From a virus: a stretch of DNA of 64,000 nucleotides. This document shows positions 508 to 62,049 of the stretch, piece by piece. The notes beneath the pieces were generated by a model. The model had not been told where the DNA came from, did no database searches, and worked only from the letters and a program-made list of their open reading frames with translations. The first letter of the stretch is position 1. Each line of letters starts with the position of its first letter. Where the stretch lies: positions 1-64,000 of IMG/VR virus record IMGVR_UViG_3300021559_000009. One strand, 5' to 3'. Made by a program: the position numbers and the translations under genes.

Positions 508-519
508 TCGCTCGACTCC

Positions 520-4197: not shown

Positions 4198-4295
4198 TTT
4201 AATGACTCCGGTGGCCCGCCGGCTAAACCAAGGTCACCCAGGGCTCGATCTCTCCGTGTAGGTAGAGACCCGTAATCCTCAGCGGGCCGCCACAA

Positions 4296-6218
4296 TCATC
4301 TATAACGCCATGACAACCTCGCCGCCTCCGCCTGCTGGCGCACTCGTGCACGCTGCTTCTCGGCAAAGAACGCCTCCAGCTTGTTCTTGTTGAACAATTG
4401 CAGAGCCCCTTGCATTGTCAAGGCCCGCCGCGCCGCCTCCGCCTCGCGCGTGAGCTTGCGCATGATCAAGTTCTTTCTGATCTCCTTCTGCCAATAATAC
4501 ACCATCAGGGCCGCAGAAACAGCCCGGTCGTCCTTCTTGCCGCTCGGCGCCTCGATCGTGTCGCCGTCCTGCGCGAGCGTGCGCATCTCTTCGATGAGGT
4601 CGGTCGATCGCACACGGAACAACCCCGAAATCACGTAGTCCCGCAAGTGGTTCATGTACATGACTTTGAGATTAGTGTTAGTCTTCATGTGCCAGTTCTG
4701 GCCCGCCGCCATCCCGTCCGGCCGTGTGTAGATGAACGTGCGCACGTTGCGAAATATATTCTTAAGCCCCTTCTCCTCGATCTCCCGCGACTGGTAGCCG
4801 TTGTCGATCTGGTGCCGCAGGCTCTTGATCTCGTTGAACACCGTCTGACCCGGACCATTCAGCTCCAGCACATAGCGCACCTCAGCCTTCTCGGACCCAC
4901 CGTACCAACCCATGATCGCCGCGAGCATCCACGCGAACTGCTGCGGTGTCGGGTGCGGCGAAGCGAACTCGGCCACCTGATCGATGCCGTCGGCGTAGCA
5001 ACGCCCCACCTCGATCGAGGAGCGATCGTTATGCTCATTCTCCCCGAAAGCGGTATCGACGCCGAGACAATAGACGCCCTCGGGATCGGGCTCCTCCCAC
5101 ACTTTCATCTCGGTCAGCTTCACGGAGTTCGTCCGGTGCACCATCATCCGGGAAAACTCGTCGCCGGGCGTAAAGTGATAGCGATCGAAGCGGTCGGAGG
5201 CGGAGTAATGATACTGCGCCGTGAGCTTGTCGGCTGGAATAAACTGCGAACCCGTGATCTGAAACGCCTCGTCCTCAGTCCACGGCTGCTCCTGGATGCG
5301 AGTTGTCGAGCCCTCGTACTCGGTCGTCGTGTCGGAATCCGTCTCATAGACAGCCGTCGGGTCCATCTTGCGCCTGATCCAGGCAAGCTGCTCCTGCGTA
5401 ATCTCGTGCCCGTACAGCTCGCGCACCAGCCTGATCTTGGCAACCTCGCGCTCGGTCGGCAGCTGCTCGCCGTAACGCAAGAAGTCGGGATCGTCGCGAC
5501 CAATGCACTGGCTCGGCTTGGACCACCACCCGAGGAACACACAGCAAGAATGCGCCTTGTCCCTGCGCGCCTCCTCCCACATGTCCTGCCACTTGTTGGG
5601 ACCGCGCGCCGTAGACTCGTAAATGTAGAGTCGATCGGGGTTCACGTCCGACAGCGACTGCTCGAACGCCTCCAAACCCTCATCGTTGTCGTAGGAACAC
5701 AGCTCCGATAAAGTCGCGAAGGCGAGGCCAATCGACCGGCCCAGCGTACCCGACGACTTGGACTTCTTGACGCCGGCCGACTTAAACAAAATCTTGGAGT
5801 TGTTCTCCAGCGTCAGCCCCTCGCGGTTGCCCTCACCCGCCCCCTTGACGTGAGGAAACTTGATCGACTCGGGCAGGTCACGGATCATCGCGACCAGCTC
5901 CTGGCGCGCATTCTCGCGGTTGGGAGCGGTGTCGAACACCAGCGCACCGGCGAGTCCGCGGTGGATGCCCAGCATGAAGACCGTGAGAGCACGGACGATA
6001 GTGGAAATGCCAAGCTGGCGGGATTTCAGAACAAAGATGCGATGAACATCCCGCTCCAGCGCGTCAAAAATCTCGGTAATGAGCTTGATCTGCCCGTCAT
6101 AAAGGTTCTCGCCCAGGCAGATGTGCCCGTCGTCCTTCGAGTCGATGCTGCAAGCGTTGAGGAACTGGTAAAAGGCGGCTTCCACCACACCGCGCTTGCG
6201 CTTGGACCATCCTGGCAT
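4296..6218 (-). CDS. terL: Terminase large subunit
   Basis: The 640-aa protein has the two-part layout of a DNA packaging motor. The ATPase half has a Walker-A-like VLKSRQLGIST (residues 63-73), a Walker-B region near residues 163-176 with an acidic ELCSYDNDE end, and a YESTARGPN motif near 200-208. The nuclease half has a metal-binding YCLGVDTAFG segment near residue 387 and a late DDRAVSAALMVYY motif, both typical of the RNase H-like fold. It would cut concatemers and pump DNA through the portal. A small terminase subunit was not identified. Confidence 0.92.
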   Translation of the reverse strand: MPGWSKRKRGVVEAAFYQFLNACSIDSKDDGHICLGENLYDGQIKLITEIFDALERDVHRIFVLKSRQLGISTIVRALTVFMLGIHRGLAGALVFDTAPNRENARQELVAMIRDLPESIKFPHVKGAGEGNREGLTLENNSKILFKSAGVKKSKSSGTLGRSIGLAFATLSELCSYDNDEGLEAFEQSLSDVNPDRLYIYESTARGPNKWQDMWEEARRDKAHSCCVFLGWWSKPSQCIGRDDPDFLRYGEQLPTEREVAKIRLVRELYGHEITQEQLAWIRRKMDPTAVYETDSDTTTEYEGSTTRIQEQPWTEDEAFQITGSQFIPADKLTAQYHYSASDRFDRYHFTPGDEFSRMMVHRTNSVKLTEMKVWEEPDPEGVYCLGVDTAFGENEHNDRSSIEVGRCYADGIDQVAEFASPHPTPQQFAWMLAAIMGWYGGSEKAEVRYVLELNGPGQTVFNEIKSLRHQIDNGYQSREIEEKGLKNIFRNVRTFIYTRPDGMAAGQNWHMKTNTNLKVMYMNHLRDYVISGLFRVRSTDLIEEMRTLAQDGDTIEAPSGKKDDRAVSAALMVYYWQKEIRKNLIMRKLTREAEAARRALTMQGALQLFNKNKLEAFFAEKQRARVRQQAEAARLSWRYR

Positions 6219-6267
6219 GCAGGATGATTACTACTCCCAAGCACGGACGACAATAGGAGCGCGATCG

Positions 6268-6537
6268 TCATCGCCTCAAGAACCCCGCCTGACTCTGCCG
6301 CTGCTGCGCATCAAGCGCCTGCAACTCCGCGTCGCACTTAGCCTTGAGCATAAGCCAAAACGTCATCCCGTCCTGCCGCGCATCGAGGATGACGGTCGCG
6401 ATCGGGTTGCCGCAATCCTTTGGGGGCACCACGACGAACGCTCCGCCGAAGCCAGAGGCCGCATTGCGGTCGATCTCCTCGGCAACGCGGAGAAAAAACT
6501 CCGCGTTGGAGGGAGGCTTGGGCTGCTCGTCAGCCAC
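6268..6537 (-). CDS. Hypothetical protein upstream of terminase, 89 aa
   Basis: The product begins MADEQPKPPSNAEFFLRVAE and has two short beta-rich stretches (GGAFVVVPPKDC, NPIATVILDARQ) followed by a charged helix rich in Gln and Arg. It lies 50 bases upstream of the large terminase gene. The position is where a small terminase is often found, but no HTH is visible, so I leave the function open. Confidence 0.6.
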   Translation of the reverse strand: MADEQPKPPSNAEFFLRVAEEIDRNAASGFGGAFVVVPPKDCGNPIATVILDARQDGMTFWLMLKAKCDAELQALDAQQRQSQAGFLRR

Positions 6538-6540
6538 GAA

Positions 6541-6900
6541 CTAGGGACCGGGGCTAGCCGGTACGGGCTGAGAAACGTGCGTAGCGTCAGCCGTATCAAG
6601 TACGATGTTACTCGGTGTCACGTCTTGCACGATATCCACGACCAGCGTCGCCACCTTCAATCCGGCCGTGTCAGACACGGTGACCGTGATCCCCGGTGAA
6701 ACCTGCACGAGTGGCGTGAGAACAATGGCGGGATTGCCACCCTTATCCGTCCCAACCGCAGTACCGAGGCTAGCCGGCTTGCTGGAAGTTACCGAGAACA
6801 CGTCCCCGGTCGGAACCGGCTCGGTTGTACCAGCCGCGTTCTGAGTCTTGATCGTGATGGTATCGATCTCGTCGTTCGGCAGCTCATAGTTCGGCATCAG
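6541..6900 (-). CDS. Ig-like small surface protein
   Basis: The product is about 119 aa, begins MPNYELPNDEIDTITIKT and is almost all beta strand with Thr/Val/Pro-rich repeats such as GDVFSVTSSKPASL and SPGITVTVSDTAG, as in bacterial Ig-like domains used as head decoration or fibre modules. I chose ATG 6900 because AGAAAGGAAAG precedes it. The frame stays open upstream; ATG 6996, behind GAGGAACC, is a real alternative and would leave a smaller gap to the next gene. Confidence 0.6.
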   Translation of the reverse strand: MMPNYELPNDEIDTITIKTQNAAGTTEPVPTGDVFSVTSSKPASLGTAVGTDKGGNPAIVLTPLVQVSPGITVTVSDTAGLKVATLVVDIVQDVTPSNIVLDTADATHVSQPVPASPGP

Positions 6901-7006
6901 CTTTCCTTTCTTGGTTCGCGTTGGCAGTTCAAGCCCTATAACGGTAGGCTTGTGGTAAAACATGTACAGAGCTTCAACCAGTTGCTGAAAAGCCATGGTT
7001 CCTCGG

Positions 7007-7339
7007 TCACACACTTCTGCCTTGGCGCATTTCAGCAACAGTTCGAGCATCATCGAGACGATGCTTGCCGCGATCAGGATCGCCAGCACCGTACTCTTGC
7101 CGATAGCGTTCAAACTCATCAGCCAGCGCTCTCACCGACGCAGCGTATCCAGGGTCACAGAACTTAAACGCCTGTTCCGCATACGCTCGCAACGCAGCCG
7201 GCGCGCACGGGTCTCGCGCTCCAAGCGTGAACGACGGCCACTCGACTACAGTGCCGTCACGTCGCTTCACCAAATACTTACCTTCCGGCGTCGCTGGATC
7301 GTCACGCCAGAGCCCGTGTATCAGAGGCTTCTCATCCAT
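7007..7339 (-). CDS. Hypothetical protein, 110 aa
   Basis: The product starts MDEKPLIHGLWRDDPATPEG, followed by a beta hairpin-like segment (KYLVKRRDGTVVEWPSF) and a long helix with ALRAYAEQAF and VRALADEFERYRQ. It sits in a run of small genes upstream of the terminase. I recognise no domain. Coding use looks like that of its neighbours. Confidence 0.6.
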   Translation of the reverse strand: MDEKPLIHGLWRDDPATPEGKYLVKRRDGTVVEWPSFTLGARDPCAPAALRAYAEQAFKFCDPGYAASVRALADEFERYRQEYGAGDPDRGKHRLDDARTVAEMRQGRSV

Positions 7340-7343
7340 TTTC

Positions 7344-7559
7344 CTACCTCACGTAGCGGTGCGAATAAACGTTCTTGACCTGCGCATTGAGCGCCTGCCC
7401 CACCGACGGCGCGTTCGCGATCTGCACAGCAAGCTCCTCGGCCACGCCCACGTAGGCGCTGACACGACCACTCTGCCACGTCACGAGAAGCTCGTTTGAG
7501 TCACTGTCGTAGCCAACCTCGGCGACGTGGGAGGAATAGACCGGCTGGGTCCAACTCAT
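7344..7559 (-). CDS. KTSC-domain protein
   Basis: The 71-aa product matches the small KTSC fold: SSHVAEVGYDSDSNELLVTW, a GRVSAYVGV turn, then APSVGQALNAQVKNVYSHRYV. I start it at ATG 7559, which has an AGGAAGGAC ribosome site and overlaps the stop of the iron-sulphur-type gene upstream. KTSC domains occur alone in many phages and next to lysyl-tRNA synthetase-related proteins in bacteria; they are thought to bind RNA or proteins, but the function here is unknown. Confidence 0.8.
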   Translation of the reverse strand: MSWTQPVYSSHVAEVGYDSDSNELLVTWQSGRVSAYVGVAEELAVQIANAPSVGQALNAQVKNVYSHRYVR

Positions 7560-7717
7560 TTGTCCTTCCTCTCCCAATGCCGACACCACCCGTGCGAGGA
7601 AATCCTGCCCTCGACGAGGGTGCACAAATACGGCTTCCTGAACATGGAACAGCCCTCGCACTTATGCAGCGCCTTCGGGTTATCCTGATACTTGGCCTCG
7701 GTCTTGGTAATTTTCAT
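7556..7717 (-). CDS. Four-cysteine HiPIP-like small protein
   Basis: The 53-aa product has four Cys at about 20, 23, 32 and 45 in the pattern C-x2-C-x8-C-x12-C with a GWCRHW ending, resembling the small high-potential iron-sulphur-like proteins of alphaproteobacterial phages. It may bind a 4Fe-4S cluster or zinc. It is coupled by ATGA overlaps to both neighbours. The metal site is inferred from Cys spacing. Confidence 0.6.
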   Translation of the reverse strand: MKITKTEAKYQDNPKALHKCEGCSMFRKPYLCTLVEGRISSHGWCRHWERKDK

Positions 7718-7905
7718 TTTACATCCGTCAACCGCCAGCCCTCAATTAGCGAACTCTCGGCTTTTCCATTACACACCCACGACACCTCGTAAGAAACCTG
7801 TTGCGGACTGCGATAGTGCACCGCCGTTATCACCCCGACAAGTTCCCTACATCCGTCCACATAGACGCGATCCTTAATCGTAAAAGCCGTGTCGATCTTA
7901 GGCAC
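7714..7905 (-). CDS. Small beta-barrel-like protein, 63 aa
   Basis: The product has the pattern FTIKDRVYVDG, LVGVITAVHYR, YEVSWVCNG, SLIEGWRLTD, which is typical of a small SH3-like or chromo-like beta barrel. Such proteins are frequent in phage early regions and uncharacterised. It ends in an ATGA overlap with the four-cysteine gene. Confidence 0.6.
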   Translation of the reverse strand: MPKIDTAFTIKDRVYVDGCRELVGVITAVHYRSPQQVSYEVSWVCNGKAESSLIEGWRLTDVK

Positions 7906-8252
7906 TAGCGCGCCATCCCATGTTCCTTAGCCGCATCCACCATGATCTGATGAACCAGAGGGAGCAGCACCTCGTCGGTGTCCTCGACGGTCTCGTCGGC
8001 AAAGAGGAGGAAGGGAATCTTGAGGAGCGGCCGGCGCGCGGGATCGTAGAACGGGTTGCCCTCCGGGACGCGCCATACCAGGACGCGCCTGCGGTCGCGG
8101 TTGTGGTCGCCCAGCGTCCTGAACTCAGCCTCCATCTCGTCCACGACACCCACCGCGCGCTGGCGGTTCTTCGCAAACTCCTTCGCGGGCAAGCGAATGC
8201 GCGCCCGGCGATCGGGGTGATCGGCGAAGAACTGGGCGTCTTGATCAGTCAT
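7905..8252 (-). CDS. Hypothetical phage protein, 115 aa
   Basis: The product starts MTDQDAQFFADHPDRRARI; this HPDRR-x-RIR opening is one I know from other uncharacterised phage and prophage proteins of Alphaproteobacteria. The middle part is beta-rich (RRRVLVWRVPEGNPFYDPARR) and the C-terminus helical and acidic. No function is known to me. It overlaps both neighbours slightly, as in a translationally coupled operon. Confidence 0.65.
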   Translation of the reverse strand: MTDQDAQFFADHPDRRARIRLPAKEFAKNRQRAVGVVDEMEAEFRTLGDHNRDRRRVLVWRVPEGNPFYDPARRPLLKIPFLLFADETVEDTDEVLLPLVHQIMVDAAKEHGMAR

Positions 8253-8430
8253 ACCCGCCTCGCGCCCTAAACAAATCGCGCTCCAACTCTTTTATCCGCC
8301 TCGCCGCCTCTTGAAAAAGATCGTGCCAATCGGCCGCAAGCTGATCGTAGGTGCGCGGGCTCAACGTGGCTTTAACGCGTTGGTCGCACTTGGCCGCCGC
8401 CGTCTCAAGCCGCATCACGAGATCACTCAT
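8245..8430 (-). CDS. Tandem paralogue 1: small helical protein
   Basis: The 61-aa product starts MSDLVMRLETAAAKCDQRV and continues as charged helices (LFQEAARRIKELERDLF). GAGGAGAAGCTCA gives a good ribosome site for ATG 8430. It is the most diverged of three tandem copies; the other two follow upstream. The family is unknown, probably a small oligomeric coiled-coil protein. Confidence 0.6.
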   Translation of the reverse strand: MSDLVMRLETAAAKCDQRVKATLSPRTYDQLAADWHDLFQEAARRIKELERDLFRARGGYD

Positions 8431-8662
8431 TGAGCTTCTCCTCACGCTTTCGCGTCGCCTCCATCTCTCGCGTCGCCTCCCGCAAAATACCGTAAACGTC
8501 ATGACACTCACGGTTCAGCCTTTTTATTTCTCGCGCCGCCTCTTGCAGAAGAATACACACCGCATCAACCTGTATGTAGTAATTAGCTACGTGCGCGAAA
8601 CCTTCGCTTTGTTTAGCGCACTTGGCCGCCACCGTCTCAAGCCGCGTCACGAGATCACTCAT
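8423..8662 (-). CDS. Tandem paralogue 2: small helical protein
   Basis: The 79-aa product shares MSDLVTRLETVAAKCAKQSE and the EAAREIKRLNRECHDVYG helix with its neighbours. It starts at ATG 8662 behind the same GAGGAGAAGTTCA ribosome site as the other copies. Its 3' end overlaps the start of copy 1 by eight bases. It extends longest at the C-terminus (EATREMEATRKREEKLNE), an almost pure charged helix. Confidence 0.65.
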   Translation of the reverse strand: MSDLVTRLETVAAKCAKQSEGFAHVANYYIQVDAVCILLQEAAREIKRLNRECHDVYGILREATREMEATRKREEKLNE

Positions 8663-8876
8663 TGAACTTCTCCTCACGCTCTCGCGTCGCCTCCTGCAAA
8701 AGACCATAAGCGTCTTGACACTCACGGTTCAGTCTTTTTATTTCTCGCGCCGCCGCTTGCAGAAGAACGCGCACGGCATCAGCCTGTATATAGTAAGTAG
8801 ATGTCTTCGCGAAACCTTCGCTTTGTTTAGCGAACTGAGTCGCCACCCTTTCAAGCTGCGTTACGAGATCGCCCAT
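8655..8876 (-). CDS. Tandem paralogue 3: small helical protein
   Basis: The 73-aa product begins MGDLVTQLERVATQFAKQSE and is closest to copy 2, sharing AAREIKRLNRECQDAYGLL. Its beginning overlaps the 3' end of the glycosyltransferase gene. The three copies appear to have arisen by tandem duplication that included the ribosome site. Function unknown. Confidence 0.65.
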   Translation of the reverse strand: MGDLVTQLERVATQFAKQSEGFAKTSTYYIQADAVRVLLQAAAREIKRLNRECQDAYGLLQEATREREEKFNE

Positions 8877-10257
8877 TGAGCTTATCCTCCAACGCTGACG
8901 TTATCCCCCTGAACACGCTCGACCAGCTCTCGCCCTGGAGCTGCCTGAAAATACGATGCTTCGGCGTCCACAGCAGCTTCTCGCCTGCGAGCCCGACTCG
9001 GTAGTCACGGCCGCCCCACGAGTACGGTATCCAGCATTCCTTCCCTACGAGCGCCGCGATGTGCCCGAGGGCTGACTCGCAGCATATCACAAGGTCAAGG
9101 TCACGCAGGAGAGACACTGTGTCCGCCACGTCGCTGATGTAGGGCGTGAGGTCGCGGATGAACCCCGCCGCCCCGACATCGTGCATCTCCTTGCCCTTCT
9201 CATCCTTTTGAAGCGAGTAAAGCTGCACGCCCGGCACGCGCAGCAGCTCGAAGAACTGGGTCACCGGAATGTTGCGAAAGCGATCAATGTCGTTTGCGGG
9301 CGAACCCGACCACGCGATGCCGACATGCAGCTTCCTGTCGGGAACCTTCCAGGTACGCGGCATCCCAAAGACGGGCGCTTCTATATGCTTCTGGCTGACG
9401 ACCTCGCTGTTACCCAGCCCAAGCGCATAGGGCAGGCTCACGAACGTCGTCCAGTAGTCGGCCGCCGGAAACGGCGCTGGCGCCGGGATCAAGTTGACGT
9501 TCGGGAGGTGCGCGAAAGCGTGAGCGAGGAGCCGCAGAAGCGCCGGCTGAATGAAAAGGTGAAGGTAGCGAGCGCGCTTGGCGGCGGCAGGAACGAAGCG
9601 TGCGAATGACAGCGTGTCACCCAACCCTTGGTCCGCCGCCACAAACACGGTCTTGCCCGGCTGGCCTGCCCACTTCTCGTAGGGAAACTTAAGGAACTGC
9701 GGCAAGCGCCATTCAAACCGGCGCTCGAAGTGCCTGAAACCGCGCTCGTAATCGCCGTTAAACAGGCAAGCAAACGCAACCGCAATCTCGCAGTTGGCGT
9801 TCTCGGGCGCGTCCTTAGGGCACAGCTCCCAGCACTTCTCGGCCGCCACCTGCATGTGAACGCTGTCGCAAAGGTGCGACCGGATCAGCGACATGTTGAG
9901 CCAGCCGAGAAAGTGCGTATCGTCGAGCTTGAGCGCGGCATCGGTCGCGGCTAGCGCTTCGTTGGTACGCGCCAGCGAGTGCAATCGCCAGCCAAGGTTG
10001 ACGAGGGCGCGCACTTTCTCGTCCTTGGTCATCTCGCACTGAAGAGCGAGCCGCCAGTTGGTGATAGCGGCCTCGTAGTGGTTAAGGTTCGAGTTGTTGT
10101 TGCCGGCCTGAAAATTTGCTTCGTACCACGTCGGATCGGCGTGGCAGGCGGAAGAAAAAAGCTGGTAAGAAGTCGTGAGATGCCGCGGGTCGGTCGCAGT
10201 GTTGTGGGCCTCGACGGCTTGGTTATAGAACTTGACAGCGGTTGCGCGATCACCCAT
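8851..10257 (-). CDS. TPR-glycosyltransferase fusion
   Basis: The roughly 469-aa protein has TPR-like helical repeats in its first 190 residues (ATAVKFYNQAVEAH, YEAAITNWRLALQ, NEALAATDAALKLD, YERGFRHFERRFEW) and a GT-B-type glycosyltransferase half (GKTVFVAADQGLGDTLSFAR, LHVGIAWSGSP, VICCESALGHIAALVG). This is the layout of TPR/heptosyltransferase-like enzymes that transfer a sugar to protein or glycan. I start at ATG 10257, where GGAG is nine bases upstream, rather than at 10287. It is likely to modify virion, host surface or DNA-linked sugars together with the epimerase and the other transferases nearby. Confidence 0.8.
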   Translation of the reverse strand: MGDRATAVKFYNQAVEAHNTATDPRHLTTSYQLFSSACHADPTWYEANFQAGNNNSNLNHYEAAITNWRLALQCEMTKDEKVRALVNLGWRLHSLARTNEALAATDAALKLDDTHFLGWLNMSLIRSHLCDSVHMQVAAEKCWELCPKDAPENANCEIAVAFACLFNGDYERGFRHFERRFEWRLPQFLKFPYEKWAGQPGKTVFVAADQGLGDTLSFARFVPAAAKRARYLHLFIQPALLRLLAHAFAHLPNVNLIPAPAPFPAADYWTTFVSLPYALGLGNSEVVSQKHIEAPVFGMPRTWKVPDRKLHVGIAWSGSPANDIDRFRNIPVTQFFELLRVPGVQLYSLQKDEKGKEMHDVGAAGFIRDLTPYISDVADTVSLLRDLDLVICCESALGHIAALVGKECWIPYSWGGRDYRVGLAGEKLLWTPKHRIFRQLQGESWSSVFRGITSALEDKLNGRSRNAA

Positions 10258-10340
10258 CAAACAGGACTCCAAAAAGCTAACCAGCAAACCGCAACGAAAA
10301 CAATTAAGGAGACGACTAGCGAAATCACGCTAACCGCCAT
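10257..10340 (-). CDS. 27-aa single-span membrane peptide
   Basis: ATG 10340 opens a 27-codon frame of nearly all hydrophobic residues (VSVISLVVSLIVFVAVCWLA), ending in TTTGATG, which overlaps the start of the TPR-transferase gene. It starts inside the last codons of the recombinase gene. A single transmembrane helix of this kind may be a small holin-like or membrane-anchor peptide. Overlap on both sides supports translation. Confidence 0.5.
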   Translation of the reverse strand: MAVSVISLVVSLIVFVAVCWLAFWSPV

Positions 10341-11049
10341 TTGCAAATCCCACTCTGTCATTTCTAATCATCCTCATCACCTGCGTCGCCTGCACCGGCT
10401 TCTCGCCACGCAGACGCACGCCCATCTCGTTGAGGCGAGTCGCCACACGGTGCGGGCGCGCATGCAGCTCGCGCCAGAGCTTGGCAGTCAGACGAATAAC
10501 CTCTTGCTCATCCTCGCGGGGCTCGAGCACCGCCTGCCTGCCCTCGCCTACAACTTTGAAGCCGTAGGGCGCCTGCCCGCCGATGTGACCGCCGTTGCGC
10601 CGCTTGCCGGCGCGGCCCTCGATCGTGCGCTCGCTGATGCGCTCGCGCTCGAACTCGGCGACGAGGGCGAGCAAGCCAAAGAACAGCTTGGCGACCCCGT
10701 TCCCCGTCACCGGCTCGGCGCCCATGTCGATCAGGATCAGATCGATCCCTCGCTTCTTGAGCTGCTCGGCCGTGAGCATGGCGTCGGAAGCCGAGCGAAA
10801 CAAGCGATCGAGCTTGTTCGCCACAATCACGTCTCCCGCCTTGGCGGCGGCGAGAAGCTCGGCGCCGGCAGGACGCAAGCCAAGCGAAATCGAGCCGCTG
10901 ACACCCGCGTCCTCGTAATGGGCGAAGTCGTGCGCGGAGACGCCACGCAACTGCGCAACCGCCCAGTTCTTGCGCCGCTGCTCGGCAAGCGAGGTCGCGC
11001 CGTCGGCGGCTTGCTCTGCTGTGCTCACGCGCGAATACGAGAGAATCAT
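10330..11049 (-). CDS. Serine recombinase (resolvase/invertase type)
   Basis: The 239-aa protein starts with the catalytic motif YSRVST (nucleophile Ser 9), followed by GVSGS, the arginine-bearing KLDRLFRSASD, GIDLILID and the E-helix FEREIISER-like FERERISERT. The C-terminal half is a DNA-binding part with RRNGGHIGGQAPYGF and VATRLNEMGVRLRG. This is the small serine recombinase layout; a large-integrase C-terminus is absent. It could invert or resolve DNA or integrate the element at a short site. It sits alone in the sugar island, and I saw no clear recombination site nearby. Confidence 0.88.
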   Translation of the reverse strand: MILSYSRVSTAEQAADGATSLAEQRRKNWAVAQLRGVSAHDFAHYEDAGVSGSISLGLRPAGAELLAAAKAGDVIVANKLDRLFRSASDAMLTAEQLKKRGIDLILIDMGAEPVTGNGVAKLFFGLLALVAEFERERISERTIEGRAGKRRNGGHIGGQAPYGFKVVGEGRQAVLEPREDEQEVIRLTAKLWRELHARPHRVATRLNEMGVRLRGEKPVQATQVMRMIRNDRVGFANGG

Positions 11050-11050
11050 C

Positions 11051-11314
11051 TCAGCACTCCATCAACGGAGGCAAGTACCTCACCGTAACCACGTAGGGCT
11101 TATCAGGAGGCGGCGAGAACTCAATCGTGTTAACGAATATAGCACACACCCTTGGCCTGCCCGCTTCCAGATTGCGCTCCAACGCCAAGGGGTTTACGAT
11201 CTGCAGCACGTATCTATGCAATTGGTTGTGCTTTTGATTACCCTCGATCCACGCTGCCACCACCTGACTATAAGCTGGCAGCTTGTACTTGGTCTTTCCC
11301 TTGCGAAGCTTCAT
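11051..11314 (-). CDS. Hypothetical protein, 87 aa, first gene after an operator
   Basis: The product starts MKLRKGKTKYKLPAYSQVV and has a basic N-terminus and a beta-rich C-terminal half (VCAIFVNTIEFSPPP, YVVTVRYLPPLMEC). GGGAGGTGCGAC is its ribosome site. It is the first gene downstream of a TGTAGT-N7-ACTACA palindrome and lies one base before the recombinase, so both are probably transcribed together. No family recognised. Confidence 0.55.
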   Translation of the reverse strand: MKLRKGKTKYKLPAYSQVVAAWIEGNQKHNQLHRYVLQIVNPLALERNLEAGRPRVCAIFVNTIEFSPPPDKPYVVTVRYLPPLMEC

Positions 11315-11324
11315 GTCGCACCTC

Positions 11325-11364
11325 CCGTGTAGTCACCCTTACTACACGGACGCCCTGGTGTCAA
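11325..11364 (-). promoter_or_regulatory. Promoter with palindromic operator (copy C)
   Basis: On the minus strand a perfect TTGACA at 11359-11364 is followed 17 bases on by a weak -10 region (TAAGGG). The -10 area lies within a 9-bp-arm palindrome, CCGTGTAGT-N7-ACTACACGG (11325-11349). The core TGTAGT-N7-ACTACA recurs at 15995 and 18077. The arrangement suggests a repressor that blocks the -10 region of the recombinase operon. Confidence 0.6.
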
Positions 11365-12322
11365 GCCTCGCTTGCTTGATCGCACGCTGCACGCCCTCCG
11401 CGAGGAACACCTTCGGCCGATAAAACTGCCGCATCTTGGCGGTGTCGGCAACACGCCAGAACACGCCTTCGGGCTTGGTCTTGTCCACAGTTACCTTCGC
11501 CTTCCGAGCCGCGTAGACCAGAGCTATACGCGCCAAGTCCAAAAACGAAGTGGGGTAACCGCTACCAATATTGAGCACCTCTCCCGGCGCAAGCTTCCAC
11601 GCCGTCTCCATGACGCAGTCCATCACGTCATCGATGTGGACGAAGTCGCGCACCTGGTCACCCGAGCCCCACACTACTAGCGGGCCCTCACCAGCAACGG
11701 CGCGCTTGATGATGCTGGGAAACGGGTAAGCGAGATCCTGGTCCTCGCCATAACCCGAGAACGGACGATAGATAACAATGTCAACGCCACGCTCGACCGC
11801 GCGTTGAGCCAAGTACTCGCCGGCGAGCTTCGCCCAGCCATAAGTTGCATCAGGGACGCCGATGCGATCGCCGTCAAACGCCATCAGCGGCTCGCCGAGC
11901 GAGCAATGGGATTCTCGCCGCTGGAATATCGTTGGATAGACAGCGGACGAAGAGAAGTAGACGATCTTCTGGCCTTTTTGCGGGTCACGCGAAACCCAAC
12001 AAAAGAAGTCGGCATCGATCGCAAAGTTCTGCGCGATGGCGAGAGGAGCGCCCTCAATCTTCGCACGCCCGCCCACCACGGCGGCGCAGTGGATAATGAG
12101 ATCAAAGCCCTTGGACGAACCTGTCGCTGAAAAATAACTGCGTACGGCGTTCTCAGCGAACGTCAAATTGATCTCGTAGTTCGATTTGAACATCCACCTG
12201 TGAGGAGGAAGACCTGCGGACATATCGTCCACTCCCGTGACCTTCCAACCGTCGTCGAGGAGACGCTTCGCGAAGTGGCGACCAACGAATCCTCCACAGC
12301 CTAAAATTAGCGCGCGCTTCAT
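11342..12322 (-). CDS. NAD-dependent nucleotide-sugar epimerase/dehydratase
   Basis: This 326-aa extended short-chain dehydrogenase has the NAD-binding GCGGFVGRH (GxxGxxG at residues 9-15), DLIIHCAAVVGG, the active-site serine region VYFSSSAVYP, and the catalytic YGWAK pair near residue 160. RPFSGYGEDQDLAYPFPSII and GSGDQVRDFVHIDDV are typical of UDP-glucose 4-epimerase-like and related enzymes. It would make a nucleotide sugar for the adjoining glycosyltransferases. The exact substrate cannot be told. Its 3' end overlaps the operator of the next transcription unit. Confidence 0.88.
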   Translation of the reverse strand: MKRALILGCGGFVGRHFAKRLLDDGWKVTGVDDMSAGLPPHRWMFKSNYEINLTFAENAVRSYFSATGSSKGFDLIIHCAAVVGGRAKIEGAPLAIAQNFAIDADFFCWVSRDPQKGQKIVYFSSSAVYPTIFQRRESHCSLGEPLMAFDGDRIGVPDATYGWAKLAGEYLAQRAVERGVDIVIYRPFSGYGEDQDLAYPFPSIIKRAVAGEGPLVVWGSGDQVRDFVHIDDVMDCVMETAWKLAPGEVLNIGSGYPTSFLDLARIALVYAARKAKVTVDKTKPEGVFWRVADTAKMRQFYRPKVFLAEGVQRAIKQARLDTRASV

Positions 12323-13101
12323 TCGATCCCCTTCTTTTTTCTCATCCTGCGTCCCAATTTGTATAGCTTGCGCAACGCTGCAGCGTCGTAGTGAGGCGAG
12401 TCGTCGATCGACGCAACTGCCGCTTTAGACGCGCGGTAACCCCACTCGTGCTCGTACACGTCGCCCCACAGATCGACCGTGCCGCTCACGACGATAGTAC
12501 CATCCTGCTCGTAGTCCCTGATGTAAGAACAAGCGCGATGCCTGTTCTTGAACCCGTGCACCCCCTCGTCGATCTTGTTGGGATCGCCCTCCGCCGGCTT
12601 ACCCGGATGCCACGCGTAATTCGACATCGCAGCGCTATACAGCAGGCCATCGCGAAGCACCCAACAGCGATAGGCGACTACTTCGCCGGCTCTAATTCCG
12701 GCGTCTTCGATGGGCTTCGCCGGCGGCGGGGAGACGGTATTGAAGGCTCCGACGGAACCGATGGTCGCGCTGGTAACACCGGGTCCGGGCCAGAGGGAGG
12801 AAGGCGGCGGAAGGGACGGCATTTGGACGGAGGAGATACCGCCGGCTCCGGCGCCTGCACCGGGTGGCGCGTTGGCACCGCCACGAACTTTCGCAAGGGT
12901 TCTCCGATATAAGCCACGAGCAGCCTCCCATAAATTGACGACGTAGCGAGTGCGCCTCTTAAACGCGCGAATTAGCGGAGAGACGACTCTCTCCTGGAAC
13001 AGTACCCTCTCGACCTTGCGATCGACAGCCTCGCCCTCTCCCCTCGACCGCAACAACTCGTCCAGATAGCGATCAGGGCAATCGAACAAGTTCCAATCCA
13101 T
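12319..13101 (-). CDS. Phage protein with Gly/Pro hinge, unknown function
   Basis: The 260-aa product begins at ATG 13101 (MDWNLFDCPDRYLDELLRS), has a helical basic N-terminal part, a Gly/Pro/Ala-rich hinge of about 60 residues, and a conserved-looking C-terminal domain with GEVVAYRCWVL, GVHGFKNRHRACSYI and TVDLWGDVYEHEWGYRA. The C-terminal domain resembles uncharacterised proteins widespread in bacteria and phages. An earlier Met at 13140 is less likely. Function unknown. Confidence 0.6.
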   Translation of the reverse strand: MDWNLFDCPDRYLDELLRSRGEGEAVDRKVERVLFQERVVSPLIRAFKRRTRYVVNLWEAARGLYRRTLAKVRGGANAPPGAGAGAGGISSVQMPSLPPPSSLWPGPGVTSATIGSVGAFNTVSPPPAKPIEDAGIRAGEVVAYRCWVLRDGLLYSAAMSNYAWHPGKPAEGDPNKIDEGVHGFKNRHRACSYIRDYEQDGTIVVSGTVDLWGDVYEHEWGYRASKAAVASIDDSPHYDAAALRKLYKLGRRMRKKKGIE

Positions 13102-13103
13102 GA

Positions 13104-14396
13104 CTACACCGGCGGCAGTTTGTGCCAGTCGAACCACCACTGCGGCGAGAACGGCTGCGGCTCGCGCGATCGAACGCCATAGAAAACCATGCCAGGAGAA
13201 AGAGCCGTCAACCGCACATCGCGATACGACACCTGCGCCGGAATGGGAAGCGAGACGAGATCGCGCGGCGGCAGAGTTGGACTAGCGACGTAGCCGCTGT
13301 GCGTGTCCTCGACGCGCAGAGAGCCGCCCTGTTTTCCTCCACTCGCAAGCAGCTCGACAGGACCGGAGAGAGGGATCGTCACCGTCGGCGAACCATCAAA
13401 CAGCGTCAGCCGCTGACCATTCAGCTCGTGTTCAATATTACCCGCGCGCCACGCAAACGGCCCAAAGCCCTGGCTGAACTCCAAGCGCCAGTCGCCCTCG
13501 TAGCACGCGCCAATGCCCTCCACCTGGTGGGCGAAGTACGTGAAGGTGCCGGAGGCGGGGTCATGCAGCACTGACCCGAGACAGCCGGCATCCTGCTCGC
13601 CCCGCCTGATCGCGGCCGTGCGCGCCGCGTAGGTCGCGAACGCCTCGTCGTTAGCTAGCTGTTCGACCGGCTGGCCGGCAATCTTCAACCCCTGTTCGGC
13701 CAGAGGGGGTTCCTGCCCGATCATCTCGACCGGCGAGGGAACGAGGGCGAGCGAAGCAAGGCCGTGAGAGGCGAGCACGCGGTCGTTTCCCCAGTCTGCG
13801 CACAGCATACTATCGTGGCTGCGAAACGCCCACCAGCGTCCGATATCAAGGTTCGAGAGGCGGGCGAAGAGGCGACGGTTCTCGGAGGTAAGCGACGTTC
13901 GCATGTGCGCGAGGGACAGCGCCGCGGCCTCACGCGTCAGTATCTGGGTTCCCCAGCCGAGATTGTGCATGACGGCGTAACCGTCTCGCTGAAAGAGAAT
14001 GCGATCCTCGTAAGCTCGCGCCGACACGGCTCCCACCGCCAAGCCATCCGCGGCTCCGCGCTCGAAGAGAGCCATGGTTGGTCCAAACCAGTCGGGTTGC
14101 AAGAATACATCGTTCTCAACAAGACCGACATGCGTCCAGTCTCCTCCCTTGAGCATCTGGGTCAGCGCGTAGGCGACCGCCGCATCGGGCCCGCCGCGCA
14201 CATTGCCGTGCACGATGATGCCATGCCGCTCGCCGGCGCGCATCTGGGTCTCGTGCGGGAACCGCCTGCCCTCCTCCGTCGTCGAACCATCGCACCACAT
14301 GATATTGGCGCCAGTGGCGAGGAGCGGCTCGATCGTCTGACGGGAGAGATCGATGCGGTCCTTGGATAAGAAGGCGAGGCAGACTTTACTCATCAT
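13104..14396 (-). CDS. Family 2-like glycosyltransferase with C-terminal domain
   Basis: The 430-aa protein begins MMSKVCLAFLSKDRIDLSRQ. Its first 240 residues look like a GT-A sugar transferase: alternating strands and helices, a GLVENDVFLQPDWF segment near residues 92-105 in the DxD position, and NLGWGTQILTREAA. The last 180 residues are beta-rich (GTFTYFAHQVEGIG, HELNGQRLTLFDGS) and may bind glycan. With neighbours encoding an epimerase and two other transferases it belongs to a glycosylation cassette. Start could also be the second ATG. Confidence 0.7.
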   Translation of the reverse strand: MMSKVCLAFLSKDRIDLSRQTIEPLLATGANIMWCDGSTTEEGRRFPHETQMRAGERHGIIVHGNVRGGPDAAVAYALTQMLKGGDWTHVGLVENDVFLQPDWFGPTMALFERGAADGLAVGAVSARAYEDRILFQRDGYAVMHNLGWGTQILTREAAALSLAHMRTSLTSENRRLFARLSNLDIGRWWAFRSHDSMLCADWGNDRVLASHGLASLALVPSPVEMIGQEPPLAEQGLKIAGQPVEQLANDEAFATYAARTAAIRRGEQDAGCLGSVLHDPASGTFTYFAHQVEGIGACYEGDWRLEFSQGFGPFAWRAGNIEHELNGQRLTLFDGSPTVTIPLSGPVELLASGGKQGGSLRVEDTHSGYVASPTLPPRDLVSLPIPAQVSYRDVRLTALSPGMVFYGVRSREPQPFSPQWWFDWHKLPPV

Positions 14397-20847: not shown

Positions 20848-20865
20848 TTACTCTCTCCACTTTTT

Positions 20866-21108
20866 GTTGCACCTGTTTTGGGTGTGTGGCGCCCCCATGT
20901 TGCACCTGTTCTTTAATGATTTCAACGCTGTGGCACCTGTTGCACGTTCTACCATAGAGCCCTTATAGAATCTTATATAATATGTAGTATATAATTATGT
21001 ACTCTATAAATATATATCTCTATATTCCATTACATTATTATAGAAAAGGCAAAACAGGTGAAACAGGTGCCACAACGATGAAATCACTACCGAATTTCTG
21101 TTGCACCT
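20866..21108. other. Probable replication origin: iterons and AT-rich core
   Basis: The 112 bases at 20946-21057 are strikingly AT-rich (TATATAA and TATA runs) and are flanked by an inverted repeat of 29 bases with 26 matches: 20917-20945 and 21058-21086. Its core is GTGGCACCTGTT. Further iterons of (G)TTGCACCTGTT lie at 20866, 20899 and 21100, and a partial one at 21053. The region adjoins the primase-helicase gene. Iterons plus a melting core next to the replication gene is the usual sign of an origin; no initiator other than the primase was found. Confidence 0.7.
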
Positions 21109-21138
21109 CCCCCATGGTACCCGCAACACCCGCAACAC

Positions 21139-23430
21139 TTACGCCTTTTTAGTGTAGCCTCTAGGGGTTCCGCCCGCAAATCTGATGGTTTTTGGTCCAT
21201 CCCACCCTAAACGCCGCAAGCTATACGCCAAACGCTTCGCTATCGTGTCCGTTTGCTCTCGCGCGCCCAATTTCAAACATTCGCTTAAGATATCCTTGGT
21301 TGGCACTCTCCATTCGCCCCCTCCATCGCCCGCTTGTTCAAGTTTTACTGAGTAGTGTTTTTCAAGTTCCGCCAAGGCGTCGTCCCATGGGTCGCGGTCA
21401 AGGCGTTCCCCTTGGAGCGCTCTTGCCTCTGCCCACAATGCTCGCGGCAATTCGAGCGTTATCCCTTGCTCCTCGATCGCGCTCGCCTCCGCCCACAGCT
21501 GGTCGCGATCGCGCCGTAGCGCCTCCAAATCGATTCGCCCGCAACGTATCGGCCAAAACCGCCGATTGCCCGTCTGCGATTGCAGATAAGTTTCGTTGTT
21601 CGTGGTCCCGAAAAATATGCAGCGCCTTGGCTGATCAACGCGCCGCCGCCCGTAGGCCGGCCGCGCCCTGTCATGCGTGCGGCTAGCGAACGCTTTCATG
21701 CGCTCGACTTCCCACCGCTTATGGCCCGCCAGGTCCGCGATTTCGTAGAGCCACACCCCGCTTACCGCCTCCTGTTCCCGCTGGTCGCCAAGCCCGAGCA
21801 GCGTCTGGTCCGAAAACCACTCGCCGGCGAGTAGGCGCACCGCCGAGCTTTTGAGTGTGCCCTCCGGTCCCTCCAGAACCGTGATCTGGTCGAACTTGCA
21901 GCCGGGCTCGCGGGCCCGCCGGACCGCGGCAACCAGCACAAGCGTCCCGACCACCTGGTTGAACGCCGTGCCGGCCGCCCCCAGGTAGGCGCTCAGCCAC
22001 CCCGCCAGCCTCGCCCGGCGGTCCCAGGCGAGCGAATCGAGATAGTCGAGCACCGGATCACGGCTCGCGGCCAGGCACTCCTGTACGGCCGCGTCATGTG
22101 TAGAAATCGTGCCAGGGTCGAAACGGTACGTCTGTTCAATCGCAACGCGCAGGATATGCACTGCGTTGTCCGTGAGTTCCCCTGACCAGTTGTCCACAAC
22201 TTGCCCCCCGAGCGTGCACCGGTCCCGAAAAGCGTCGTGGCGGCACTCGATCCCGAGCCCCCGAATCGCCAGGCGCGCATTGCGGCACGTCGCCAATGGT
22301 TTACCGGCTTTGTTGGTATCGGGAAATGCAATGCGAGGCGTGCTTGAGAAAATAGGCGCAGGCAACGCCGCAACGCCATTGACTTTACTGTGGTTTACGT
22401 TGTTAGTGTCCGGCGTAAAATTTTCCGTCCATCCCCACCGCTTGGCCTCCGCGCAGATGAAAGCCACGGTCACCCGCAACCCTGTGTAGTTCTTGTTTTG
22501 GAACCCTTGCCACCGCTTCGCAAGGTCCGCTCGTCCCCGGTACTCCCCGTTGCCCGCGCCTTTACCCTGACTGGTTCGTGACCACGCGTCCCACAACTCG
22601 AATCCCACATCCTGCCCGTCCTGAGTGCTGGTCGAAGGATGGTTCCAGCGGAGATCGCACAGCGCTGCACCGATCTTGAACCATGTTTCTCCGTCAATGT
22701 CGGCCGGCACAGCCGCGAGCATCGAGCGCAAGCGCGTCTCCGCCTCGGGTGACCACGGTTGAGCCTCCGCCTCCTGAAGCGCTCTCATTGCCCGCTGAGC
22801 GGTCGTGGCGGCCCCACCTGCCACTGCCCGCAGGTGGGGCCCGTTGGTAGGGGTTGAAGTTCTTTCAGCTGGCACCACCCCCTTTCCTCTCGATCGCACC
22901 CATGGCCCGACCCACGCTGGCACCGCTACCACTGGTGAGTCCACAACAATTGTGTAGATAGTACCGTTCTCGTGGACGCACCCCGGCGCCAGCACGTAGC
23001 CGGTACTGCCGCGAACGTCCAAGTGCTCGCCCTTGACTTGGCTCGATGGTACTCCTGAGCCCGTCGAAGGGGCCGCGTAGTAAAGATGAAATCCCCCTGG
23101 CCGCCCCGTCTTGACGGTCAATGTGCGCGGCACAAACGTGCCGCACTTTTCCAAATCTTTCCGTGTTTCCGAGAGTTTCCGTAGCAGTGCTTGCCCCTCC
23201 GGACCGTCGAGGTCGAGCACCACCAAGCCTGAAGGCCCGGTCGCTATTCCGCAATTGGCGTCGGGCGCCGCTCGCCCCCATGCCTCCACCTGCGCGCGGT
23301 CGAGCGTCGCATCCTTGAACCCGCGGCTGCCTTTGAACGGCAGCTTGGAGCGCGGCTGCAATGGAAAAACCCACCACCCGCGGGCGAGACATGGCAGGGC
23401 AATTTCAAGAAATCGTGGCTGGTCTGGCAT
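21139..23430 (-). CDS. Primase-polymerase/helicase (VapE/D5-like)
   Basis: The 763-aa protein has an N-terminal Prim-Pol domain (FKGSRGFKDATLDRAQV, GIATGPSGLVVLDLDGPEG with the metal-binding acids, KTGRPGGFHLYYAAP), a middle PriCT-like part (WFKIGAALCDLRW) and a C-terminal VapE/superfamily 3-type ATPase with Walker A EGPEGTLKSS near residue 520, EIADLAGHKRWEVERMKAF and FFGTTNNETYLQSQTGNRRF. It would unwind and prime at the adjacent origin. Start is uncertain: I use ATG 23430; the open frame upstream runs through a hairpin and is unlikely to be coding. Confidence 0.85.
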   Translation of the reverse strand: MPDQPRFLEIALPCLARGWWVFPLQPRSKLPFKGSRGFKDATLDRAQVEAWGRAAPDANCGIATGPSGLVVLDLDGPEGQALLRKLSETRKDLEKCGTFVPRTLTVKTGRPGGFHLYYAAPSTGSGVPSSQVKGEHLDVRGSTGYVLAPGCVHENGTIYTIVVDSPVVAVPAWVGPWVRSRGKGVVPAERTSTPTNGPHLRAVAGGAATTAQRAMRALQEAEAQPWSPEAETRLRSMLAAVPADIDGETWFKIGAALCDLRWNHPSTSTQDGQDVGFELWDAWSRTSQGKGAGNGEYRGRADLAKRWQGFQNKNYTGLRVTVAFICAEAKRWGWTENFTPDTNNVNHSKVNGVAALPAPIFSSTPRIAFPDTNKAGKPLATCRNARLAIRGLGIECRHDAFRDRCTLGGQVVDNWSGELTDNAVHILRVAIEQTYRFDPGTISTHDAAVQECLAASRDPVLDYLDSLAWDRRARLAGWLSAYLGAAGTAFNQVVGTLVLVAAVRRAREPGCKFDQITVLEGPEGTLKSSAVRLLAGEWFSDQTLLGLGDQREQEAVSGVWLYEIADLAGHKRWEVERMKAFASRTHDRARPAYGRRRVDQPRRCIFFGTTNNETYLQSQTGNRRFWPIRCGRIDLEALRRDRDQLWAEASAIEEQGITLELPRALWAEARALQGERLDRDPWDDALAELEKHYSVKLEQAGDGGGEWRVPTKDILSECLKLGAREQTDTIAKRLAYSLRRLGWDGPKTIRFAGGTPRGYTKKA

Positions 23431-23503
23431 CCCCTTGCGCGCCTCTGCGGCTTCTGCTACGCAAGGTTCCGGTGCAATCCTCCCAGGACGTACCACCTTG
23501 CCT

Positions 23504-23547
23504 AAAGGCCCCACCGCATAGCCGCGCCGGTGGGGCCTTTTCTTTTT
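23504..23547. terminator. Strong hairpin with T-run upstream of primase
   Basis: A perfect 13-bp stem, AAAGGCCCCACCG with CGGTGGGGCCTTT, has an 11-base loop and, on the plus strand, a TTTTCTTTTT tail. As a plus-strand terminator it would stop transcription antisense to the primase before it enters the early operon. On the minus strand it lies in the primase leader and may regulate its expression. Confidence 0.65.
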
Positions 23548-23632
23548 GCGATGGTGCACCCTCGCCGCAATATCGTCAACATGTGACGCCGCGCAATTTT
23601 ATTGCTTTTTAGTGAGAGCAGCGCGCGGGGAA

Positions 23633-25166: not shown

Positions 25167-25492
25167 AAAACTCTCCCAACGGCTACGTCCGCACCAGGCA
25201 GTTCTGGCACACGCGCGTCATGTGTCCCCACTGCCAGCAGCCGATGCCCGAGATGCGTCTGGGCGTACGCTTCCCGCCCCTCAAGGCGGCGATCTTCGAT
25301 CTGATAAAGCTTACGGGCGATCACGGCATGACGCAGCAAGAGATACAAGACTCGTTCGAGCTGAGCTCGCTCTACACGGTGCGTGCGCACGTCTGGGGCA
25401 TCAACGAGCTGATCGAGGACACGGGCTGGAGGATCAGGGGCGGCACGAAGCATGCGCCGGGGTATAAGCTGATTAGAGTCGATCCGCGATGA
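25163..25492 (+). CDS. Zinc-knuckle/winged-helix phage protein
   Basis: The 109-aa product has a CPHC pair near residue 21 and then a winged-helix-like domain: FPPLKAAIFDLIKLTGDHGM, TQQEIQDSFELSSLYTVRAH, GINELIEDTGWRIRGG. Related proteins are common, without known function, in alphaproteobacterial phages. It starts in the previous stop and overlaps the DNA polymerase start, so it may be a replication accessory or a regulator. Confidence 0.65.
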   Translation: MKNSPNGYVRTRQFWHTRVMCPHCQQPMPEMRLGVRFPPLKAAIFDLIKLTGDHGMTQQEIQDSFELSSLYTVRAHVWGINELIEDTGWRIRGGTKHAPGYKLIRVDPR

Positions 25493-27363
25493 GAATCGTC
25501 GTCATAGATTTCGAATCGTTTTTTGCCGACGACTATACTTTGTCCAAGATGAGTACGGAAGCTTACGTCCGTGATAAGCGTTTCGAGGCTCACGGCGCCG
25601 CAATTAAATGGTCCAAGGATACGCCTGCACGATGGTACGATGAGAGGCAGTTGCGAGAGGTGTTGAAGAACGAGGACTGGTCAGATGTGTTTCTCCTTTC
25701 CCACCACGCGAATTTTGACCACCTCATACTATCTCACCACTACTCCGTGGCGCCTCGAATGTCCGGTTGCACGCTGTCCATGGCTCGGCTCTTGCTTGGC
25801 AACCATATCTCTGTCTCCCTCGATTCTGTCCGACAGCAATTCGGTTTGCCCGTTAAGCGTACCCCGTATCACCTTTTCAAGGGCAAGCATTGGCGCGAGC
25901 TGAGCGATGAGATAAGGCAGCAGGTCGCTGACGGCGCTTGCGATGAGGTCGAGTCGATCTGGACGCTGTTCGGGATACTCTCGAAGCAGTTTTCGAGCGA
26001 AGAATATTCCGTCGTGGACACCACGATAAAAATGTTTACGCAGCCCGTGCTGCGTGCTGACACCGAATTGCTCGCTCAAATCTGGGAGAAAGAAGAAAGT
26101 GACAAATCACGTCGTCTTGCCGATTTGGGCGTTAGTGCTATCGAGTTGCAGTCCAGTGATCGTTTTGCTGACCTTATTCGCGCTGAGGGCATTGAACCTG
26201 AGACCAAAGAAGGACCGGAACGCAAGGACGGCTCGCGAGGAATAATCTACGCGTTTGCCAAGACCGACTATTTCATGGAGGAATTGCTTGAGCACGAGAA
26301 CCCGCGAGTTCGCGCTCTCGCCGAGGCTCGCATCGGCCAGAAGTCCACTCTCATGCAAACGCGCGCCGAGACGCTGGGCTGGATGGCAAGTCGGGGACCT
26401 CTGTGCGTTTATCTGCGCTACGCAGGCGCTCACACGACGAGATGGAGCGGAGGAGACAAGACGAATTTCCAGAACTTCAAGAAGCCCGATCCCGATCTCC
26501 CTCCAGACGAGAACCCGAATATCAGGGACGCGGTCTTGGCGCCCGAGGGTTATGTCTTAATTAAGCCCGACTGTTCGCAGATCGAATGCAGGCTGCTTAA
26601 CTTCGTTGCCGGCCAGCACGACGTGATCGAGCGGTTCCGCAACGGCGAGGACCCTTACGTCAACGTCGCTTCGGCGTTCTATGGTTATGCCGTCAACAAG
26701 CGCGACCATCCGACCGAGCGCCAGTGCGGCAAGGTGCTTGAGTTGCAGGCAGGTTACGGCTCGGGCGGCGATAAGATCAGGCACACGCTGCGCGTCAAGA
26801 CCAAGGGCAAGATACTGCTAACACCGGAGGAAGGGCTCAAAGCGCGCGACGCGTACCGCGACACCCATCCCGCGGTGACCGACCTTTGGAAACAGGCTGG
26901 CCGGATGCTGGCGCGGCTTGCTGGCGGACCACCGACGACATGGGGCCCGTGCGAGGTGCGCAACCATCGGATCGTTTTGCCCAATAAGACGGAACTTATC
27001 TACGACACTCTGGAATTTCACCGCCCCGAATCCGAGGAAGAGATAAAGACTGACTGGGATCGCGATGGGTGGTGGCGCTTGCGCACGCGGCGCGGCTGGA
27101 CCAAGATGTACGGCGCGAAACTGGTGGAGAATTTGATCCAGGCCCTCGCGCGTGTCGTCGTGTCCCAGGCGATGATTCGCGTAGTGAACATGGGCTATCG
27201 CGTGGTAAGCATGGAGCACGACTCGCTGTGGATTTTGATTCCGGAGCAAAACGCTAAAGACCACGCCGAACGCTGTCGTCTTGAGCTGTGCCGCGACGTG
27301 CCGTGGCTGCCGGGATTGCCGCTCGATGCGGAGGTGACGCTGGGAGAAAAGTATTCGAAATGA
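25489..27363 (+). CDS. DNA polymerase, family A, with 3'-5' exonuclease
   Basis: The 624-aa protein has an N-terminal DEDD exonuclease (VVIDFESFF with Asp 7 and Glu 9, LLSHHANFDHLIL) and a family A polymerase: LRYAGAHTTRWSGGDKTNFQ, motif A KPDCSQIECRLL near residue 360, motif B with GKVLELQAGYGSGG near 415 and motif C SMEHDSLW near 573 (H-D-S in place of the usual H-D-E). A 5' nuclease domain is lacking, as in other phage enzymes. It would copy the genome from primers made by the primase. Confidence 0.95.
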   Translation: MRIVVIDFESFFADDYTLSKMSTEAYVRDKRFEAHGAAIKWSKDTPARWYDERQLREVLKNEDWSDVFLLSHHANFDHLILSHHYSVAPRMSGCTLSMARLLLGNHISVSLDSVRQQFGLPVKRTPYHLFKGKHWRELSDEIRQQVADGACDEVESIWTLFGILSKQFSSEEYSVVDTTIKMFTQPVLRADTELLAQIWEKEESDKSRRLADLGVSAIELQSSDRFADLIRAEGIEPETKEGPERKDGSRGIIYAFAKTDYFMEELLEHENPRVRALAEARIGQKSTLMQTRAETLGWMASRGPLCVYLRYAGAHTTRWSGGDKTNFQNFKKPDPDLPPDENPNIRDAVLAPEGYVLIKPDCSQIECRLLNFVAGQHDVIERFRNGEDPYVNVASAFYGYAVNKRDHPTERQCGKVLELQAGYGSGGDKIRHTLRVKTKGKILLTPEEGLKARDAYRDTHPAVTDLWKQAGRMLARLAGGPPTTWGPCEVRNHRIVLPNKTELIYDTLEFHRPESEEEIKTDWDRDGWWRLRTRRGWTKMYGAKLVENLIQALARVVVSQAMIRVVNMGYRVVSMEHDSLWILIPEQNAKDHAERCRLELCRDVPWLPGLPLDAEVTLGEKYSK

Positions 27364-46260: not shown

Positions 46261-46270
46261 TAATCACCTA

Positions 46271-47439: not shown

Positions 47440-47447
47440 TCAGCATC

Positions 47448-47798: not shown

Positions 47799-47802
47799 TT
47801 TC

Positions 47803-50579: not shown

Positions 50580-50581
50580 AG

Positions 50582-57625: not shown

Positions 57626-57626
57626 T

Positions 57627-58562: not shown

Positions 58563-58592
58563 ATCGCTAAAAAAGGAGATGGCAGCCTCCTA

Positions 58593-62048: not shown

Positions 62049-62049
62049 A

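Follow-up and report, generated by a model that had tools for sequence, protein, structure and literature searches.

A putative iteron origin directly downstream of the primase-helicase gene of a tailed phage and its likely recognition by the C-terminal winged helix of the gene product

The region directly 3′ of the primase-helicase gene in virus record IMGVR_UViG_3300021559_000009 is very probably the replication origin of a tailed phage of about 66.5 kb, with the adjoining primase-helicase acting as initiator and reading the iterons of this region through its C-terminal winged helix. This assignment draws on comparison of sequences: the layout of the region, its recurrence in the family, a concerted switch of the iterons between close relatives, and covariation of the iterons with the wing and recognition helix of the protein. 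The fold of the winged helix is a prediction. The window analysed was a stretch of 64,000 nt, part of a record of 67,213 bases.

The putative origin was located past the end of the primase-helicase gene (21139), with a 57-aa ORF on its other side, and hence on the 3′ side of the gene. It contained nine iterons, degenerate copies counted, with the core TG-NN-ACA, which were named by alignment to the related phage L003. The features of the region are as follows.

20865–21137, no strand: putative origin, two blocks with nine iterons in all, one on either side of an AT-rich centre, from the sequence
20865–20871, minus strand: iteron 1, TGCAACA (TGTTACA in L003)
20898–20904, minus strand: iteron 2, TGCAACA (TGTTACA in L003)
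20917–20945, plus strand: left arm of the inverted repeat, 26/29 positions matching the right arm
20929–20935, minus strand: iteron 3, TGCCACA, in the left arm, 9 bp from iteron 4 (TGTTACA in L003)
20938–20944, minus strand: iteron 4, TGCAACA, in the left arm (TGTTACA in L003)
20946–21057, no strand: AT-rich centre, probable unwinding element, 76% A+T, best 80 bp 85%
21058–21086, minus strand: right arm of the inverted repeat, 26/29 positions matching the left arm
21059–21065, plus strand: iteron 5, TGAAACA, in the right arm, 9 bp from iteron 6 (TGTTACA in L003)
21068–21074, plus strand: iteron 6, TGCCACA, in the right arm (TGTTACA in L003)
21099–21105, minus strand: iteron 7, TGCAACA, in the right block, opposite orientation (TGTAACA in L003)
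21122–21128, plus strand: iteron 8, CGCAACA, 9 bp from iteron 9 (CGTAACA in L003)
21131–21137, plus strand: iteron 9, CGCAACA, abutting the stop codon (TGTTACA in L003)

The initial annotation had proposed an iteron-flanked AT-rich origin with 29-bp inverted arms next to the primase-helicase gene, and this proposal is well supported. The arms were found exactly where it had placed them, the region does adjoin the gene, the repeats around the arms were borne out, and the layout turned out to be general in the family. The 112 bp between the arms had been called nearly pure A/T; they are AT-rich, and their best 80 bp are the lowest-GC 80 bp of the window (the next lowest elsewhere had 70% A+T), but the overall A+T content is well short of purity. 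When the arms were lengthened to 37 nt, 31/37 positions matched. A scan for 29-nt arms with at least 24 matches within ~260 nt detected no other inverted repeat of such quality in the 64 kb, and none in three composition-preserving shuffles. Longer repeat words were TGTTGCACCTGTT at 20865 and 20898, TGTGGCACCTGTT at 20929, and TGTTGCACCT at 21099, and ACAGGTG occurred at 21054 and 21063. Three iteron pairs had a start-to-start spacing of 9 bp (20929/20938, 21059/21068, and 21122/21131). Eight of the nine iterons shared the orientation of their own block, the exception being iteron 7.

The first ~705 bases of the record (window positions 1–705) were repeated at its end, at positions 66509–67213. 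Two near relatives, L003 (67,024 bases) and L007 (67,246 bases), were 92.7% and 93.9% identical to the window phage over the aligned 58–60 kb and represented circular permutations of its genome. The terminal recurrence and these permutations point to a probably complete genome of ~66.5 kb, either circularly permuted or assembled from a circle. Most of the DNA was ~85–98% identical to L003; the stretches at ~45.6–48.5 kb, adjoining a tail fibre/spike-like gene (42290–44737), and at 18.9–20.6 kb gave no alignment. A family-A DNA polymerase gene (25489–27363) is encoded on the other strand, diverges from the primase-helicase gene, and is followed downstream by exonuclease-like and then SNF2-like helicase genes. 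Ten large ORFs were scanned (window 1919–14396 and 44737–62979): seven, including that at 54377–57625 (1082 aa), had no PHROG match, one matched only a PHROG family of unknown function, and two gave partial matches to virion/baseplate proteins. The structural module of the window phage thus looks highly divergent.

GC skew, a check proposed in the initial annotation, was considered as a marker of the origin and rejected. The detrended minimum was positioned 2.4–2.7 kb from the putative origin in the window phage, L003, and L007 alike. Since the minimum lies close to where the primase gene starts and genes switch direction in the window, GC skew is not an independent locator of the origin.

Comparison with L003 revealed the concerted switch. 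The 290 bp 3′ of the gene aligned without gaps and contained 39 differences, which affected 16/18 of the NN positions of the nine iterons vs. 23/272 of the other positions (Fisher 6e-14). All nine iterons were changed, mainly from TG-CA-ACA in the window to TG-TT-ACA in L003: NN was CA in six, CC in two, and AA in one iteron of the window, and TT in seven and TA in two iterons of L003. The inner 71 bp of the AT-rich centre had two differences, and a viral scan for the exact pattern of this AT core matched L003 only. The primase-helicases of the two phages differed by seven amino acids in the last ~310 residues. Three of these changes (C761Y, T791L, and P799S) were found in the last 80 residues, two of them at the wing; T791L corresponds to ACC → CTT, with every base of the codon altered. 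In L007, the iterons were GTGTAAG in a 9-bp tandem, the origin region was not alignable with that of the window, and the winged helix was 54–57% identical to that of the window phage.

To see the layout on a wider scale, 176 non-redundant relatives from viral and bacterial collections, named phages included, were compared. The initial annotation had advised such a comparison. In 54/170 relatives, repeats with a 9-bp lag were present in the first 450 bp 3′ of the gene; they were absent from control regions upstream (0/159), further downstream (0/149), and within the gene (0/175). An earlier, first set of relatives likewise gave 9-bp tandem repeats downstream of the gene. The second commonest downstream lag was 18 (14 relatives), and in 59/172 relatives the 400 bp that follow the gene contained no clear iterons. 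Two iteron blocks flanking an AT-richer centre were plain in L007, L018, L020, L055, and L064, as well as in Marinobacter phage PS3, Corynebacterium phage IME1320_01, and Bordetella phage BPP-1. The latter carries ACGAGGCAA twice in tandem on each side (record positions 26607–26711; 1608–1711 in L013). These 9-bp tandem pairs flank a spacer of ~67 bp about 0.5 kb past the primase gene.

The arms of the window phage can fold into a long hairpin (z-score −6.6), and the changes between the window and L003 retain their pairing, so that recognition of this hairpin by the initiator could be considered instead. Recognition of a stem-loop has been proposed for proteins with this order of domains from pRN1 and phage BIP-1/BPP-1, and pRN1 requires its downstream stem-loop (PMC4234260). 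For BPP-1/BIP-1, the stem-loop was suggested after no suitable iterons had been found (PMC4234260), but the 9-bp tandem pairs of BPP-1 were seen in the present analysis. Moreover, the five iterons outside the arms were switched like the four inside, direct 9-bp tandems occur in many relatives, and a concerted change of iterons within an inverted repeat mimics compensation. The repeat pairs of BPP-1, together with the iteron switch beyond the arms, therefore favour iterons over a stem-loop, which we regard as very unlikely to be the recognised element, although the hairpin may play some role.

The protein encoded next to the putative origin and its terminal domain are specified as follows.

21139–23559, minus strand: primase-helicase gene (Pfam PF09250, 8.8e-39, and PF05272, 1.1e-67; PHROG helicase/primase)
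21142–21315, minus strand: coding sequence of the predicted winged helix, approximately residues 749–806 (AlphaFold2)

The domains follow in the order Prim-Pol (54–216), a weak PriCT_2, a VapE-like AAA+/SF3 helicase (507–718), and the predicted C-terminal winged helix (about 748–806). The VapE domain matched PDB entry 7pds, “similar to D. nodosus vapE” (3e-32), which we take to be SaPI Rep. AlphaFold2 modelling of the last 101 residues, with 58 homologues in the alignment, gave a mean pLDDT of 83, with ~90 across most of the domain; prediction for the full-length protein was of low confidence (pLDDT 38). The modelled domain begins with a strand (748–753), a helix (754–761), and a short helix (766–768), followed by the recognition helix (771–783) and the wing strands (787–791 and 800–805). 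T791 is the last residue of one wing strand and P799 lies just before the other, which places both at the base of the wing in the model. A search of the viral structure library with this model retrieved VapE proteins (E 7e-4), and a fold search of PDB gave no significant match, RepE54 included. Sequence searches with the C-terminus yielded no relevant match in Pfam and PDB, the NCBIfam search gave no match, and a Rep_3-type initiator domain (iteron plasmid Rep, RepE type) had no Pfam match in the primase-helicase.

Iteron sequence covaried with the wing. Where the helicase cores of a pair were at least 85% identical, similarity of the iterons correlated with wing identity (r = 0.68; 0/5000 within-cluster permutations) and with identity of the recognition helix (r = 0.46; 12/5000), and had no clear link to the first helices (r = 0.31; 556/5000) or the helicase core (r = 0.10; 828/5000), all these correlations being inflated by relatedness among the sequences. 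In pairs with cores at least 90% identical, wing identity was 0.876 for the same iterons vs. 0.627 for different iterons, and core identity was 0.950 vs. 0.959, respectively. A further set, gathered later, consisted of relatives of L043, from which loci were removed if their downstream sequence was shared with the first set. In this set the coefficients were 0.89 for the wing, 0.91 for the recognition helix, and 0.77 for the first helices; the helicase core also correlated (0.72), which makes the contrast weaker.

In the L043 subfamily of both sets, with iteron classes assigned by automatic word counts, the wing residue four positions past the Trp that ends the recognition helix matched the iteron base in 53/53 loci, a rule that was spotted in the data before being counted. 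It was Gln in all 12 GTCAC loci and Arg or Lys in all 41 GTCC loci. Pairing of Arg/Lys with G and of Gln with A fits common protein-DNA chemistry. On the helicase-core tree the residue and the iteron each changed four times; two independent contrasts on well-supported branches were both as expected, a number too small for a sign test to reach significance. A different subfamily contains L085 (Tyr at this position, GTGCAC) and L089 (Lys, GTCCAT), which had cores 0.986 identical and differed mainly in the wing. A simple rule relating T791 to GCAAC and L791 to GTTAC was rejected: L097 has T at the equivalent position together with GTAACG repeats, which indicates that context matters. Covariation could also arise from joint movement of the C-terminus and the origin by recombination; such transfer would still imply that both work as a unit. 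The likely reader of the iterons is the C-terminal winged helix of the primase-helicase itself. This protein, one of the two kinds of reader that the initial annotation had suggested, is supported as the reader by the covariation; the N-terminus, which it had put forward for binding, is not the part to which the evidence points.

Two other readers were weighed against the primase-helicase. The repeats lie 5′ of the next co-directional genes, and two weak promoter-like matches were found in the region (shuffled mean 1.0), as might be expected of operators or promoter elements that serve the downstream genes or the primase operon and that a repressor or host factor would read. Such a function is highly improbable, as iteron sequence varies together with the primase-helicase wing in separate clusters, tandem repeats are enriched solely directly 3′ of its gene, and the iteron words are nearly missing from the rest of the genome. 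The iterons might also be read by a host protein, a role that DnaA or IHF has at other origins. Host proteins commonly assist origins of this type, and a possible helper word, TTGAAA, was noticed by eye near some iteron blocks, though it was absent from the enriched words. However, iterons differ between near-identical phages in which the surrounding sequence is kept, and their sequence tracks the wing of the phage protein, so that a host protein as the iteron reader seems extremely unlikely.

Reading of iterons just downstream of its own gene by a helicase is already known: the C-terminal domain of SaPI Rep and SCCmec Cch2 recognises such iterons (PMC7581432), and the winged helix of P4 alpha binds origin repeats (PMC4234260). 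The recognition factor would thus not be new, contrary to the expectation in the initial annotation. The SaPI and SCCmec proteins are self-loading helicases with iterons directly downstream of their genes (PMC7581432). The window phage likewise has short iterons directly downstream of its helicase gene, and its VapE-type helicase domain is homologous to SaPI Rep. It differs in that its protein has a Prim-Pol fused to the helicase, in its TG-NN-ACA iterons, some of them in pairs spaced 9 bp apart, and in being a tailed phage of 66.5 kb that encodes a family-A polymerase. In P4, crr is situated directly 3′ of alpha, and annotated type 1 repeats are 9 bp apart (4314/4323 and 4494/4503) in both orientations. 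In contrast to the PF09250 Prim-Pol at the N-terminus of the window protein, the primase of alpha is of the Toprim type. The P4 origin includes a second part at a distance, and no significant sequence similarity was detected between alpha and the window primase-helicase. Streptococcus phage Sfi21 has an annotated 302-bp non-coding origin (phage inhibitory sequence) directly 3′ of a putative primase, where tandem AGTTACTT/AGTTACTA flank an AT tract in inverted orientation. The repeat spacing in Sfi21 is, however, 8 bp, and BLAST detected no similarity between its helicase and the window protein. pRN1 ORF904 and BPP-1/BIP-1 resemble the window phage in Prim-Pol, helicase, and C-terminal winged helix and in an origin downstream of the gene, but were described as having a stem-loop origin without iterons (PMC4234260). 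In PLE RepA/ori and ICP1 Odn, initiator and iterons co-vary under attack by an origin-directed nuclease (PMC8263062). The likeness here is a swappable module of initiator DNA-binding domain and iterons (PMC8263062); the PLE system differs in its RepA_N initiator, ~30-bp iterons, and N-terminal recognition.

By analogy with SaPI Rep and SCCmec Cch2 (PMC7581432) and P4 alpha (PMC4234260), we propose that the C-terminal winged helix would bind the iterons and that the two inverted iteron blocks would load two helicase rings face to face across the AT-rich centre. The centre would then melt, the Prim-Pol domain would prime the exposed strands, and the phage family-A DNA polymerase or host enzymes would extend the primers; by the same analogy, replication may be bidirectional, as the initial annotation had suggested. 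Wing and recognition helix would determine iteron specificity, so that iterons and wing would change together.

A broader interpretation, to which we give slightly less than an even chance, is that VapE-type primase-helicases use a short wing code (for example, Arg/Lys–GTCC and Gln–GTCAC; T791–GCAAC and L791–GTTAC in some backgrounds), and that phages ~93% identical repeatedly co-switch iterons and wing. They would thereby form replication compatibility groups, perhaps escaping origin-targeting rivals or satellites in the manner described for PLE and Odn.

The interest of the finding lies in the natural switches of specificity. Near-identical pairs that differ in every iteron and in a few residues of the wing are natural experiments, through which a change of initiator specificity without loss of replication becomes testable by one- to three-residue swaps. 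Iteron origins in this downstream position had been known in a small number of satellites and phages; they appear common across Prim-Pol/VapE phages and prophages, and origins of many uncultured phages may therefore be locatable from sequence. An iteron reading is now offered for the BPP-1 type as well, for which a stem-loop was previously proposed.

A word-enrichment search for a shared non-iteron element yielded chiefly AT-rich and GTTACA-type words. Iterons of the GTTACA/GTTAC type were present in the distant members L159, L003, L134, L147, L014, and L100, the wings of which differ; this suggests that a GTTACA-type word was reached repeatedly in separate members of the family.
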